From contig JAIRNA010000027.1 in the NCBI GenBank assembly GCA_031258305.1, positions 1 through 35,664 of the forward strand: 35,664 nucleotides of DNA, written 5' to 3'. The notes beneath the pieces are model-generated. The model saw only the letters and a program-made list of their open reading frames with translations, made no database searches and was not told the origin of the DNA. The DNA comes from Treponema sp. Its GTDB lineage: Bacteria; Spirochaetota; Spirochaetia; Treponematales; Breznakiellaceae. The translations under genes and the position numbers were made by a program. Below, in pieces: positions 13,721-20,588 of the stretch. Each line of letters begins with the position of its first letter. The first letter of the stretch is position 1.

Positions 13721-14698
13721 CTAAATTTGCGCCCGTATGCCGAGGGTAACGCCGTAGTTCGAGTCCATGAAGTTATACATACCGGTGAGGTCGAATTTCA
13801 TGATAAGCACGTTCAGAGAAACGCCCGCAAAAGCGCGGAAAGCCCATCCGGTAGTGTCGATGATTGACGAAAAGCCAGTCGGGGAGAGCTTGTCAAGACC
13901 CGGAACGCCCGCGGAGGACAAACTGTCCTTGATTTCCTCAATATCGGCGTTATCAATGTATTCTCCTCCGTATTTCAGTCTCGATTCAACCGAATAACCC
14001 GCATTTGACCATGCATAACTCGCCCCAAGCCCGGCGTAAGGCGTAATAATCAGGAAAGATTTGGAAATTTGCGCCTTTATGTCAATACTTTTGGTCTCCC
14101 ACGAGAAGGTCGCCTCAGGTTGGGTAAGTTCAAGCGATTTCCCATCCGTGTTAAAAGAAACGCCGCTACCGAGGGGAGCTGTGAGGGAGCTCTTCAGGAA
14201 GTTGAAACCAATCCCTACAGAGATTTTCGGCAGGACCACGTTGCCTTCCATAACTGCGAAGCGGATGTCCGCGCCTGCGAGCAGGTAGTCAATCTTGAGG
14301 CGATCCCCAAAGTCAACTTGGGGCAGAGCACCGAATTTTACCCCGATATCAAAAGGCAGGAAAAGGCCGCCGAGCCGCCCTTCCACAACATAAGCAGGGA
14401 TGAGCATCTGGTCTATGGGAATAGATAGTCCGAAATTGTCCAGTAAATCACCGAAAGCAACGGAATTCAGGGTGGTGAATCCTCCCGACGCTCCGATACC
14501 GAAATGAGGCGGGACTCCAAGTAATTTGCCGATATATGCGTCGGACCAATTCAAGCCCATACTGGCGTTAAAAGGAAGAGACGCGGCCAGTTTTGCCGAA
14601 AAAGTATCGACATTCTTCTGCAAATCGGCGAGATCATCGCTAAATCCGTTAAAAGCGACCGTCAAGGTAATAGCCGCAATGGTAAAAATTCTTTTCAT
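13721..14698 (-). CDS. predicted outer-membrane beta-barrel protein
   Basis: A 325-residue exported protein. The signal peptide is MKRIFTIAAITLTVAFNGFS, cut before DDLADL. The rest alternates short amphipathic strands with glycine turns (FGIGASGGFTTLN, PKISVGIGFNFLKSSL, LIITPYAGLGASYAWS, FRAFAGVSLNVLIMKFDLTG, YGVTLGIRAQI). It ends in a strand with hydrophobic C-terminal residue, as barrel proteins do. No named family recognised. ATG 14698 is chosen because AAAAAGGAG lies just upstream and the signal peptide starts there; the longer open frame to 14758 adds no plausible signal. It has its own promoter (14776-14804), divergent from the ECF gene. Confidence 0.82.
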   Translation of the reverse strand: MKRIFTIAAITLTVAFNGFSDDLADLQKNVDTFSAKLAASLPFNASMGLNWSDAYIGKLLGVPPHFGIGASGGFTTLNSVAFGDLLDNFGLSIPIDQMLIPAYVVEGRLGGLFLPFDIGVKFGALPQVDFGDRLKIDYLLAGADIRFAVMEGNVVLPKISVGIGFNFLKSSLTAPLGSGVSFNTDGKSLELTQPEATFSWETKSIDIKAQISKSFLIITPYAGLGASYAWSNAGYSVESRLKYGGEYIDNADIEEIKDSLSSAGVPGLDKLSPTGFSSIIDTTGWAFRAFAGVSLNVLIMKFDLTGMYNFMDSNYGVTLGIRAQI

Positions 14699-14775
14699 AG
14701 TAAACTCCTTTTTAGAGAATCTCACGGAATATTCTGAGAGACTTGAACGGTAACGCACAGGTAACCATTCAAACC

Positions 14776-14816: not shown

Positions 14817-17021
14817 ATGATAAGCGTCAGAGACCTTTCCTTTAGCTATGGGAAGGAAACAACAGTACTTGAAAAGATTCGTTTTGATATAGATCAAGGC
14901 GAATACGTCGCCTTGATGGGGGAAAATGGATGCGGGAAAAGCACCTTGGTCTCTTGCATAAACGGACTCCTCACGCCGCCGCCCGGTGCGGTGTCGGTAT
15001 ATGGGCTTGACGTGTCAGCCGCGGTTAGCGCGAACAACGACGGCGATAAAGCTTCTTCTTTCGCGGGAGATTTAAGGCAAATTCGTACTCTCGTTGGTAC
15101 CGTGACTCAGAACCCAGATTCGCAAATTATCGGTTCCGCGGTCGAGGAGGATACTACCTTTGGACCGGAAAATCTCGGATTATCGGAGACAGAAATCAAA
15201 GCGCGGGTTGACCGTGCGCTCGCCGCTGTGGGGCTTGAGGGATTACGGGAACGTCCGACGCAAACCCTATCCGGCGGTGAAAAACAACGGCTCGTCATCG
15301 CAGGCGCGCTTGCCGTCGGAAGTCCATGCCTCCTCTTGGACGAGCCTACTTCTATGATAGACCCGGAATCCGCGGAGCGCCTCCTCTCCGTGATAGACGC
15401 CTTGAATGAGGCGGGTACGACCATTGTCCACATTACCCATGACTTAAAACATACCGTACGCGCCCGCCGCTGTCTGGTTCTCCACAAGGGCAGGCTGGTC
15501 TTCGACGGAACACCCGCAGACTTGCTCAAAAACCCGCAGTTGGAACCATGGGGCTTAAAGGCGCGGGCGCCTCTGCCTATAAAGAATTCACCTGCGGACA
15601 ATGCATACAGTATTCGGTTTGAATCCGTGTTCTTTTCGTATTATAGCTATAAAAAGAATCTTTTTTATAAACAGCACGTCCAGGACGCGAGTTCAGGGCT
15701 CTACAATGTTACGGTGAGCATACCGCAAAACAGCCTGGTCGCGGTCATTGGGAAGAGCGGTTGCGGTAAAACGACGTTTCTCAAGCACATAAATGGCTTA
15801 CTTGTGCCGGAGGCAGGAAATGTGAGCGTTGCGGGTAAGGGAGATCTATTCAAGCGGGCCGCGCTCGCTATTCAGTCCCCCGAAAGCGCCTTGTTTGAAG
15901 CCTATGTTGCGGACGATGTGGCGTTTGCGCCGAGAAACGCGGGTATCAAAGGCAAGCCGCTTGTCCAAAGCGTGAAGACCGCGATGGAAGACGCGGGCTT
16001 GCCTTTTGCGGAATTTGCGGAGAGGGAGACGCGGAGCCTGTCCGGTGGAGAGAAACGCCGCGCCGCGCTTGCAGGCGCCCTTGCTATGGACAGTAAGATT
16101 CTCTTGCTAGACGAGCCGTTTGCAGGGCTTGATGCAAAAAACCGCGCCCACATTATGAATATGGTTTTTGAACAGCAGGCGAAGGGTAAAACGATAATTG
16201 TCGTAACCCATTCGCCGGATATGGTCGATGCTTTTGACTTCGTGCTTGCTATGGACAAGGGGCGGATAAGGGCGTTTGGAACACCGGCTGAGGTTCTCGG
16301 CGCCGGGGAGGCAAAGGGGAAAAGGACTTATCCGCAAACAATTCTCGATAATTGCAACCGAAAGGAGGCAAACCCGCTCCCTTCCTTGCGGAACCTTGGT
16401 TCGGGTAAGAAATTGTTACTGCTTTTGGGGCTAGGCGGCGTTGCGCTGGCGGGAAACGTGTTCTTCCCCGCGGGGGTGATGATTTTTGCCTTTCTTGCGG
16501 GCGTGTTTTGGGGACGTGTCTCGGCTCGTTTCCTGCTCAAGAGCGCCTTCTCAAGCCTCCCGCTACTAGGAATAGTCGTGTTTTTTCAGCTTGCGTTCAA
16601 CTGGGTGAATGATGAAAGCAGTGTGTTTGTTGAATTTTTCCACATATCTATCACCACTGCGGAAGTTTATCGTTCGATTTCCATCGTAATCCGCGTATTT
16701 GCGATTGTCGTGTGTTTGACGCTGTATAGCGCGGTAACACCCTTACGGGAGACCCTCCGCGCGGTCAACCACTTCCTAGTCCCTCTGAAGTTTCTGCACG
16801 GACGAGACATTGCTATGGCTTTGGGTATAAGTCTAAGATTTACGCCTATTCTCGCGGGGGAAGCGGAGCGCATCAAAACCGCTCAACGCTCCCGCGGTGG
16901 TAAAAAAGGCGTCAGAGGCGCCTTTGCGGTGATTATCCCCCTGTTACTCCGTGCCCTGGAAAAATCTGAGACATTGGCATCCGCGATGCTCTTGCGCCTC
17001 TACCCTCATCCAGAAGGGTAG
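14817..17021 (+). CDS. single-chain ECF transporter module: EcfA-EcfA-EcfT fusion
   Basis: Energy-coupling module for vitamin or metal uptake, with all three usual subunits in one 734-residue chain. ATPase 1 (about 1-255): Walker A GENGCGKST at 35-43, signature LSGGEKQ, Walker B LLLDEPTSMIDP, ITHD. ATPase 2 (about 268-495): Walker A GKSGCGKTT near 311, LSGGEKRR near 407, LLLDEPFAGLDA, VTHS. T component (about 520-734): several membrane segments and the coupling helix LRFTPILAGEAERIKTAQRSRG (two parts), whose ARS/ARG-type motif contacts the ATPases. Both ATP sites look intact. ATG 14817 has no ribosome site. A substrate-binding S component is not present nearby, so the module may serve several S proteins encoded elsewhere. 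Confidence 0.92.
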   Translation: MISVRDLSFSYGKETTVLEKIRFDIDQGEYVALMGENGCGKSTLVSCINGLLTPPPGAVSVYGLDVSAAVSANNDGDKASSFAGDLRQIRTLVGTVTQNPDSQIIGSAVEEDTTFGPENLGLSETEIKARVDRALAAVGLEGLRERPTQTLSGGEKQRLVIAGALAVGSPCLLLDEPTSMIDPESAERLLSVIDALNEAGTTIVHITHDLKHTVRARRCLVLHKGRLVFDGTPADLLKNPQLEPWGLKARAPLPIKNSPADNAYSIRFESVFFSYYSYKKNLFYKQHVQDASSGLYNVTVSIPQNSLVAVIGKSGCGKTTFLKHINGLLVPEAGNVSVAGKGDLFKRAALAIQSPESALFEAYVADDVAFAPRNAGIKGKPLVQSVKTAMEDAGLPFAEFAERETRSLSGGEKRRAALAGALAMDSKILLLDEPFAGLDAKNRAHIMNMVFEQQAKGKTIIVVTHSPDMVDAFDFVLAMDKGRIRAFGTPAEVLGAGEAKGKRTYPQTILDNCNRKEANPLPSLRNLGSGKKLLLLLGLGGVALAGNVFFPAGVMIFAFLAGVFWGRVSARFLLKSAFSSLPLLGIVVFFQLAFNWVNDESSVFVEFFHISITTAEVYRSISIVIRVFAIVVCLTLYSAVTPLRETLRAVNHFLVPLKFLHGRDIAMALGISLRFTPILAGEAERIKTAQRSRGGKKGVRGAFAVIIPLLLRALEKSETLASAMLLRLYPHPEG

Positions 17022-17236: not shown

Positions 17237-19027
17237 ATGAGTCGTTTTAGCAATTTCACCGTGGCCATATACTGTCCTGCACAGTGGACCGCATATGTGT
17301 CCGAATCGGAACTCGTGGAACAAATCGTTTTTTTCGAGAAATATGTCGGGGTCGACAAGGTTTATCTTGAGACTTTCCGCTCGGAAACCGCGTCAAAAGA
17401 ACAAGTGGATAGGTGCAAGCGAATTTTCGCGGAACATGGCGTTAGGGTTTCGGGCGGCATCACGACCGTTACGGTGGATTTGGACGCCGAAGATAGAAAG
17501 CAACGTAGACGGCTTTTCAACACGTTTTGTTATTCAAATGAAGCAATGCGTCGCCTCCTCAAGGGAAAAGTTGAATATACGGCGAGCTTGTTCGATGAAT
17601 TCATCATAGACGATTTCTTTTTTACGCAATGTACCTGCGCTGATTGCCAAAGAGAGAAGGGAAGTCGCCTATGGGCGGATTTTCGTCTCGAAAAGATGCG
17701 TGAAATATCGGAAAATCTCGTCATAAAACCCGCAAAGGCAGTGAATCCAAAGGTTAATATCATCATAAAATATCCAAACTGGCGAGAGAGCTTTCAAGAG
17801 ACCGGCTATAATCCAGCAATTCAGAAAGATATGTTCGACATGGTTTACACAGGTACGGAAACGCGCCATCCGGTTTTTACCGACCAGCACTTACCTCGCT
17901 ATTTGAGCTACTCTCTTATGCGGTTTATGGGAAATACAGCGCCCGGCAGGAACGGCGGCGGATGGCTCGATCCTTATGAGTGTTACTCCATAGACAATTA
18001 TCTTGAGCAAGCCTACCTTATGGCTTTCTCCAAGCCGTCTGAGATAACCTTGTTCTGTTGGCCTTCGCTTTTCAATAACAAGGTAATAACACCGATGGGC
18101 TTCCGTCTTAAACAGTTGGATGAAATTCTGAACCATCTGGGTAAACCAGTCGGCATACCAGTCTACCTTCCCCACAACAGCCGGGGTGAAGATCACCTCG
18201 AAGATTATCTCGGCATGCTGGGCGTTCCGTTTGATCCATCGCCGGTATTCGCGTCAGAGACAGTCGTTCAGGATCAATCGGTATTCCTCACCGCATCGGC
18301 CCTTTACGACCGCGAAATAATCGCGAAAATCCGTGATTTTTTGAACAACGGCGGAAGAGTCATAGCAAGTTCAGGTTTTGTCTTGGGCGCATTAGATCAA
18401 GGAATCGGTATTGAAGACTTCACATCCATCCGCTACCACGGGCGAACCATTTCTGTGGACGAGTTCCATATCTCGCGCTTAGACCATTCCCGTATGTTCT
18501 ACACAAAATCTACGGAAAAAATTGCATTTCCCTTGCTAGAACACCGTAACAATGCGACATGGTCGCTCGTCAATGCGGGTTCTGGAGACTGCCATTCTTC
18601 GATTCTGATGCGAGATACTTTCGGCAGAGGCGAATTCATCACACTTGTCGTACCGTCTCTGTTTTCTGAAATCAAGAAACTGCCGCCCGAAGTCCTTACC
18701 CGCATACGGGAAGAATTTCATCCCGATATTTTTCTCGAATCTGGCGTTCAGGTTTCCCTTTTCGTCTACGGCAACAGGACTTTCGGACTCTATTCCTATG
18801 TTTCGGGTGATTTTTCAAGCCGTCCTGCTTGGGTAAAGGTTCACATCAAGGGATGTGCAAAGGCGCTGTCTCTGATTCTGCCAGAAACGCGGGAGAACAT
18901 ATTCTCCGCGCCTGCCGGCAGGGATAAACAGCCCTCTAATATGCCACCTCTCTATTCAAACGTAAGGGAAACAGTTTTCGAATTGAGAACCGAGCCGGGC
19001 GAGTTCGCATTTTACAAGATTTTATAG
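17237..19027 (+). CDS. cytoplasmic TIM-barrel glycoside-hydrolase-like protein
   Basis: A 596-residue protein without signal peptide. The first half looks like a TIM barrel of the putative glycosyl-hydrolase (GHL/GH42-like) type: VDKVYLETFR, GVRVSGGITT, FDEFIIDDFFFTQCTCADCQ (near 115-135, an acidic strand end followed by a Cys pair), KYPNWRESF and LFCWPSLF. The second half (about 310-450) has a class-I-glutamine-amidotransferase-like alpha/beta fold, with IRDFLNNGGRVIASSGF, as in GH42 beta-galactosidase trimerisation domains, then a beta-rich C-terminus. Catalytic acids cannot be assigned with confidence. The substrate is probably an oligosaccharide taken up by the cell. It is monocistronic, with a promoter bearing a putative operator. 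Confidence 0.75.
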   Translation: MSRFSNFTVAIYCPAQWTAYVSESELVEQIVFFEKYVGVDKVYLETFRSETASKEQVDRCKRIFAEHGVRVSGGITTVTVDLDAEDRKQRRRLFNTFCYSNEAMRRLLKGKVEYTASLFDEFIIDDFFFTQCTCADCQREKGSRLWADFRLEKMREISENLVIKPAKAVNPKVNIIIKYPNWRESFQETGYNPAIQKDMFDMVYTGTETRHPVFTDQHLPRYLSYSLMRFMGNTAPGRNGGGWLDPYECYSIDNYLEQAYLMAFSKPSEITLFCWPSLFNNKVITPMGFRLKQLDEILNHLGKPVGIPVYLPHNSRGEDHLEDYLGMLGVPFDPSPVFASETVVQDQSVFLTASALYDREIIAKIRDFLNNGGRVIASSGFVLGALDQGIGIEDFTSIRYHGRTISVDEFHISRLDHSRMFYTKSTEKIAFPLLEHRNNATWSLVNAGSGDCHSSILMRDTFGRGEFITLVVPSLFSEIKKLPPEVLTRIREEFHPDIFLESGVQVSLFVYGNRTFGLYSYVSGDFSSRPAWVKVHIKGCAKALSLILPETRENIFSAPAGRDKQPSNMPPLYSNVRETVFELRTEPGEFAFYKIL

Positions 19028-19979: not shown

Positions 19980-20588
19980 CTATTCGCCGGGGGGCAGAAG
20001 ATAGTTTAATGCTTCGACAACCTTATCTATCTGCTTTTGCGGCTTTCTACCTGAATTGTTTATAATATAAATAGTCTCTTTATTTTCGGCATTTTTGCGT
20101 ACAGATTTAAGGCAAAAAGAAAAATTCTGACTTTTGAACCGACTGAAAATACTGATCCATGAAAGACGATCCCGGCGTTTCGCCCGAATGAGTCGGATGA
20201 GCAACGGCGCTTTCACCACGATAATGGCGTCAAGTCGGGGAAAAATACTCGTCCGATGTAGCAATGCCGCGTTGATAATGCAGTTCTCGTTTTTTTCTAC
20301 CCAGTCCTCGATAAGCGTATTCACACACGGGTGAATTATCGCCTCCAGCACCGCAAGTTCCATTGGTTTTCCGAAAACCTTCTCGCCGAGCAGTCTATGG
20401 TTTACGCGCCCATCCTTCACTATGTCGTTGCCGAATCGCTCCACAATGGATCTCTGTTCCCGTTCAATGACCTTATGCCCTAGTTTGTCGACATCCAGCG
20501 CGGCGAAACCTCTTTTTACCAAAATTTCAGCAACATGATTCTTCCCCGCACAGTAAAATCCTGTCAAGCCGATGATTCTTTTACTCAT
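19980..20588 (-). CDS. coaE: dephospho-CoA kinase
   Basis: Last step of coenzyme A synthesis: phosphorylation of dephospho-CoA at the 3'-OH. The 202-residue protein has the P-loop GLTGFYCAGKNH (7-18), then LDVDKLGHKVIE (the DxDxxxH region), HP in AIIHPCVN, and an Arg-rich lid at about 135-155. The P-loop is a variant: the usual GGIGSGKS/T is FYCAGKN, with Asn after the catalytic Lys. It overlaps the upstream GH73 gene by ATGA. The length is normal for the family. Confidence 0.9.
   Translation of the reverse strand: MSKRIIGLTGFYCAGKNHVAEILVKRGFAALDVDKLGHKVIEREQRSIVERFGNDIVKDGRVNHRLLGEKVFGKPMELAVLEAIIHPCVNTLIEDWVEKNENCIINAALLHRTSIFPRLDAIIVVKAPLLIRLIRAKRRDRLSWISIFSRFKSQNFSFCLKSVRKNAENKETIYIINNSGRKPQKQIDKVVEALNYLLPPGE

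Follow-up and report, generated by a model that had tools for sequence, protein, structure and literature searches.

A single-chain EcfA1-EcfA2-EcfT module in Treponema sp. and its probable partnership with a PanT-like S component

One gene of Treponema sp. (GenBank assembly GCA_031258305.1, contig JAIRNA010000027.1) encodes a complete EcfA1-EcfA2-EcfT module of an ECF transporter as one chain, which most likely works chiefly, and probably exclusively, with a PanT-like S component in the import of pantothenate. The gene lies in the window, i.e., the whole stretch of 35,664 nucleotides that was analysed. The system is best read as an ECF-PanT transporter whose genes were joined step by step; it varies a machine already known and is not a new kind of system.

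The gene reads as one open frame of 734 codons plus a stop, with an ATG start (Table 1). Pfam places two ABC_tran matches in it (best stretch, residues 18-179), together with a CbiQ match at residues 549-729 that scores far above the cut-off of 25 bits; the NCBIfam scores for the whole protein are sums over both ATPase domains. Motifs, Pfam matches and the open frame agree with what had been claimed from the letters alone, namely that two intact ATPases and the T protein are fused in one chain. Both ATPase domains are of the EcfA/CbiO kind and carry complete catalytic motifs (Walker A, signature, Walker B and H-loop), with the H-loop His at residues 205-209 in the first and 462-466 in the second. 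The catalytic Glu and the H-loop His of both domains, as well as the Walker B Asp and Glu of the first, are present in 37 of 37 spirochaete engines. The T component belongs to the EcfT/CbiQ family and has two Arg motifs in its coupling helices; all 37 spirochaete and all 17 other sequences compared keep Arg-Gly in the first of these motifs and Arg in the second. The ECF Q-helix motif is defined as X-P-D/E-X-Q-hydrophobic (PMC6828968), to which the first ATPase conforms (NPDSQI), whereas the second reads SPESAL, with Ala in place of Gln. This Ala is found in 36 of the 37 spirochaete engines, fused or unfused, in contrast to Gln in 17/17 of the others.

Table 1. Features of the fused gene (window coordinates; residues are those of the fused protein)
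Feature	Position	Strand	Basis
Fused A-A-T gene	14817..17021	+	Open frame; full-length one-frame orthologues in sister species
First ATPase domain, EcfA1-like, residues 2-247	14820..15557	+	TIGR04520 best stretch 2-252; EcfA1 structures
Walker A, first ATPase, GENGCGKST, residues 35-43	14919..14945	+	Motif reading
Q-loop and canonical ECF Q-helix motif, first ATPase, VTQNPDSQI	15102..15128	+	Definition from PMC6828968
ABC signature, first ATPase, LSGGEKQR, residues 151-158	15267..15290	+	Motif reading
Walker B and catalytic Glu, first ATPase, LLLDEPT, residues 172-178	15330..15350	+	Motif reading
Linker between the ATPase domains, residues 248-293, disordered in model	15558..15695	+	pLDDT below 50
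Second ATPase domain, EcfA2-like, about residues 284-498	15666..16310	+	EcfA2 structures; second ABC_tran stretch
Walker A, second ATPase, GKSGCGKTT, residues 312-320	15750..15776	+	Motif reading
Q-loop and altered Q-helix, second ATPase, AIQSPESALF, usual Gln replaced by Ala	15867..15896	+	Alignment
ABC signature, second ATPase, LSGGEKRR, residues 408-415	16038..16061	+	Motif reading
Walker B and catalytic Glu, second ATPase, ILLLDEPFAG, residues 428-437	16098..16127	+	Motif reading
Linker from second ATPase to T domain, residues 497-528	16305..16400	+	pLDDT below 50 at 497-522
T domain, EcfT/CbiQ, residues 529-729	16401..17003	+	CbiQ 89 bits; profile; T-only model
First coupling-helix Arg motif of T, RSRGG, residues 691-695	16887..16901	+	Motif reading
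Second coupling-helix Arg motif of T, LLRLY, residues 725-729	16989..17003	+	Motif reading

The full-length structure model (pLDDT 78.6, pTM 0.76) shows two well-predicted ATPase domains, a helical membrane part and two disordered linkers (residues 248-293 and 497-522). The first ATPase domain is modelled with high confidence and is matched by solved EcfA1 chains over residues 2-247, and solved EcfA2 chains match residues 295-498. Since ATPase matches dominated the full-length structure search, the T domain was also folded alone. The resulting model (mean pLDDT 78) retrieves 12 EcfT/CbiQ entries at Z 11.4-13.8, with an rmsd of 5-7 Å over 194-213 residues, before the next unrelated row falls to Z 5.0, and Foldseek agrees. 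Likewise, a T-domain profile built from nine fused proteins matches five distinct sequences in the PDB, all of them EcfT or CbiQ, the best being EcfT 4huq_T (E=5.3e-39).

Within the genus of the window, the A-A-T frame occurs in 11 of 12 genomes, the twelfth being 57% complete. Fused frames are also found elsewhere in the same family (G013, G015, G016, G022, G024, G026, G028, G033 and G244) and in another family (G049, G052, G055, G058, G162, G197 and G232). Gene order differs among the relatives. In ten genomes from two other families of the order the ATPases are fused and the order is AA, T, S, with the T and S genes following AA and mostly overlapping; six genomes of the window's own family have the order AAT, S; and in the window's genus and a third family AAT occurs with S elsewhere. 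A tree of concatenated domains, made by a quick method, divides the spirochaete AAT chains into two clades with AA+T forms between them; because the fork that orders these clades is weakly supported (51), one and two spirochaete fusions are indistinguishable. The fusion is also present in Actinobacteria, in Actinomyces, Corynebacterium and relatives, with CbiQ above the Pfam cut-off in the four proteins scanned. In the tree a very long branch (2.0 changes per column) sets these chains apart, and fusion therefore happened at least twice overall; the starred branches of the domain tree force at least two changes. The sequence-only reading had considered that the fusion might prove common across Firmicutes and spirochaetes, and this holds for one side only: it is frequent in the spirochaete order, whereas the Firmicutes sampled have mostly three separate genes.

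A 596-aa open reading frame with no Pfam or NCBIfam match lies downstream of the fusion (window 17237-19027, + strand), and a divergent DUF6588 gene with outer-membrane-like features occupies 13721-14758 on the - strand, its orthologue (78-79% identical) also adjoining the fusion in G009 and G011. Most of the genus has a YicC-like gene upstream of the engine: a gene of about 307 aa stands directly upstream in six genomes (L118:2009-2929 and G001, G002, G003, G005 and G007), and the one scanned (L118) is a YicC-like endoribonuclease, which is absent upstream in the window. The YicC-like gene, an AI-2E transporter (G022) and NUDIX genes (G052, G058) were considered as functional clues and set aside as neighbours without a shared theme.

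The source genome is a draft of 158 contigs, and an assembly or sequencing artefact that masks stop codons or frameshifts could in principle mimic a fusion. This explanation is practically eliminated by the orthologues in sister genomes, which align over residues 1-732/733 in one frame without stops (G011 and G009, with 71% and 69% identity, respectively), and by the 27 spirochaete loci in the sample that hold A-A-T in one open frame, including that of the closed-looking genome G244, a single contig of 3,239,340 bases. The places near residues 260 and 515 where missed frameshifts had been suspected coincide with the two low-confidence linkers. A different question is whether the translated chain stays whole, given that one polypeptide might be cut in its linkers, or that internal starts might yield free A2-T or T, in which case the module would not be covalently 1:1:1. 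The predicted disorder of both linkers would permit this, as would the strong variation of linker lengths between genera, with fused frames ranging from 709 to 991 aa. The fusion has been retained over long divergence, and nothing direct points to cleavage of the chain, which makes a divided module quite improbable and an uncleaved one the reading adopted here.

No S protein is found among the main open reading frames of the window, as had been remarked from the sequence, and only three S components are detectable in the whole source genome. One of them, on contig C24, is of the riboflavin type (NF010182, 218 bits, cut-off 99) and adjoins its own AA and T genes. This locus (L114:742-4072) is the genome's second ECF system, with a fused AA, a separate T and the riboflavin-type S. 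Another is BioY, on contig C86. Contig C52 has an ATPase gene and a T gene whose counterparts in G009, G010 and G011 (81-83% and 67-73% identity, respectively) adjoin BioY. These orthologues in the sister genomes identify the C52 pair as BioM and BioN, and BioY was accordingly rejected as a client of the fused engine. BioM/BioN (L115:5817-7159) and BioY (L139:947-1504) thus lie on separate contigs here and are contiguous in three sister genomes. The remaining S component is a PF12822 protein (G000:C95:3035-3637), the candidate membrane-embedded partner whose interaction with the engine is predicted. In 16 genomes an orthologue of it immediately follows the engine (10 with AA, T, S and 6 with AAT, S), so that A, A, T and S share one operon in these relatives, the arrangement of group I ECF systems with their dedicated modules; this is not so in the window's genome, where the PanT-like S gene and the engine are on different contigs and the linkage is seen through relatives only. 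In the sister genome G011 the orthologue is within 4 kb of the engine, and in the f3 clade (G049, G052, G055 and G058) S is likewise unlinked.

This distribution bears on whether the engine is dedicated or, as had been proposed from the sequence alone, shared. If the engine were broadly shared, any genome that retains a client S would be expected to retain it as well. BioY is present in 52 of the 60 relatives, some 21 of them lacking the fused engine. Engine and PanT-like S are together present in 32 of the 60, together absent in 24 and discordant in four (Fisher p about 3e-12, uncorrected for shared ancestry). Among the discordant genomes, G010 is 57% and G001 80% complete, G023 carries S beside a T fragment where a contig ends, and G004 (92%), with an engine and no detected S, is the one clear exception. 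The near one-to-one occurrence, together with the separate engines of the two other S components (adjacent for one, seen through sister genomes for the other), favours a dedicated engine, and the proposal of a shared one is not supported. A group II engine powering several S components would nevertheless fit some features: the nearest matches of the T and S sequences are group II EcfT and PanT, most orthologues of the S partner have a group II small-xxxA-type motif in helix 1, and by gene order alone the unlinked S of the window's genome gives a group II look, as is usual for that group (PMC11521937). Against the inventory and co-occurrence above, this possibility appears unlikely.

The substrate suggested for the dedicated engine is pantothenate. 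When a profile of the C95 S protein was compared with the PDB, the only plausible matches were two PanT chains, 6zg3_C from L. delbrueckii (E=1.5e-11) and 4rfs_S from L. brevis (E=5.1e-8); every other row has E >= 0.35. Residues R101(95), N139(131) and W69(64) are important for pantothenate binding (PMC7755397). In the S orthologues the Arg is kept in 30 of 30 and the Asn in 29 of 30, and the Trp is replaced by Phe in all. The searches detected neither PanB nor PanC in the source genome, which is 93% complete, so that a gap in the assembly could hide them; among 14 control genomes the same searches recovered PanB in 11 and PanC in 9. PanT homology, the conserved Arg and Asn and the absence of PanB and PanC together point to pantothenate, with the Trp-to-Phe exchange as a reservation. 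This exchange, at a position held by Trp in both solved PanT proteins, and weak matches of two S orthologues to the ThiT model, far under its cut-off, would be in line with a dedicated importer of another substrate. Such an importer is improbable, given that the two PanT chains are the only well-matched PDB sequences, that the site retains its Arg and Asn and that both pantothenate-synthesis genes are missing. No riboswitch that would name the substrate was found, in that neither the window nor the surroundings of the engine and S loci give an Rfam match at gathering score. A TPP-riboswitch-like match at G000:C83:18966-19066 (L141), the sole one in the genome, scores 53.8 bits and so falls slightly short of the gathering score (54.3). 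CoaE (dephospho-CoA kinase), which carries out the last step from pantothenate to CoA, is encoded about 3 kb from the fusion (window 19980-20588, - strand), an adjacency that may be due to chance.

The fused engine has counterparts among known systems. In ECF-PanT of Lactobacillus delbrueckii (6ZG3) and Levilactobacillus brevis (4RFS), EcfA1, EcfA2 and EcfT work with a PanT S component, as is proposed here, and the T-domain and S profiles match chains of these complexes; their A1, A2 and T are separate proteins, whereas here they form one chain. The L. delbrueckii module also serves FolT2 (PMC7755397), while no second client was found for the fused engine. The fusion of two ATPases is already known (YkoD; PMC5037267, PMC6828968): the group I thiamine/HMP importer YkoEDC likewise has both ATPase domains in one chain, YkoD, and one dedicated S (PMC5037267). 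Its T component, YkoC, is separate and its S belongs to another family, whereas in the fused engine T is joined as well and S is PanT-like. The A-A-T architecture itself is already present in public genomes, including those of cultured Actinobacteria; Actinomyces, Corynebacterium mendelii, Pseudoglutamicibacter albus and others have the same ABC_tran-ABC_tran-CbiQ order in one chain of about 750-810 aa, fused separately from the spirochaete chains and far apart from them in the tree. No description of a single A-A-T chain was found among the open-access papers searched.

In the proposed working cycle, the S protein would bind pantothenate outside and dock onto the T domain at its coupling helices. 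Held by their flexible linkers, the two ATPase domains would next close, with ATP, around the T-domain Arg motifs, S would topple and release the vitamin inside, and hydrolysis would reset the module and free S. Release of the S component is held to be part of the ECF cycle. More tentatively, gene fusion might have given rise, on two or more occasions, to an ECF module that is covalently closed and works by an altered mechanism: A1, A2 and T would be inseparable, S would still have to dissociate, and the two ATPase sites would couple unequally to T. In this reading the unequal coupling would follow from the second ATPase having lost its Q-helix Gln across the spirochaete order. The altered mechanism is conceivable and rather doubtful at present; the more probable reading remains that of an EcfA1-EcfA2-EcfT module joined in one chain and serving a PanT-like S.

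In this lineage a three-gene motor for vitamin import has become one polypeptide, which could simplify expression for structure work. As a natural single chain it offers a fixed stoichiometry, so that in experiments the release of S could be separated from the disassembly of the module. Additionally, the lineage keeps the intermediate orders, from AA, T, S through AAT, S to AAT with S elsewhere, making the route of the fusion traceable. Finally, the findings suggest that spirochaetes of this lineage depend on their surroundings for vitamin B5.
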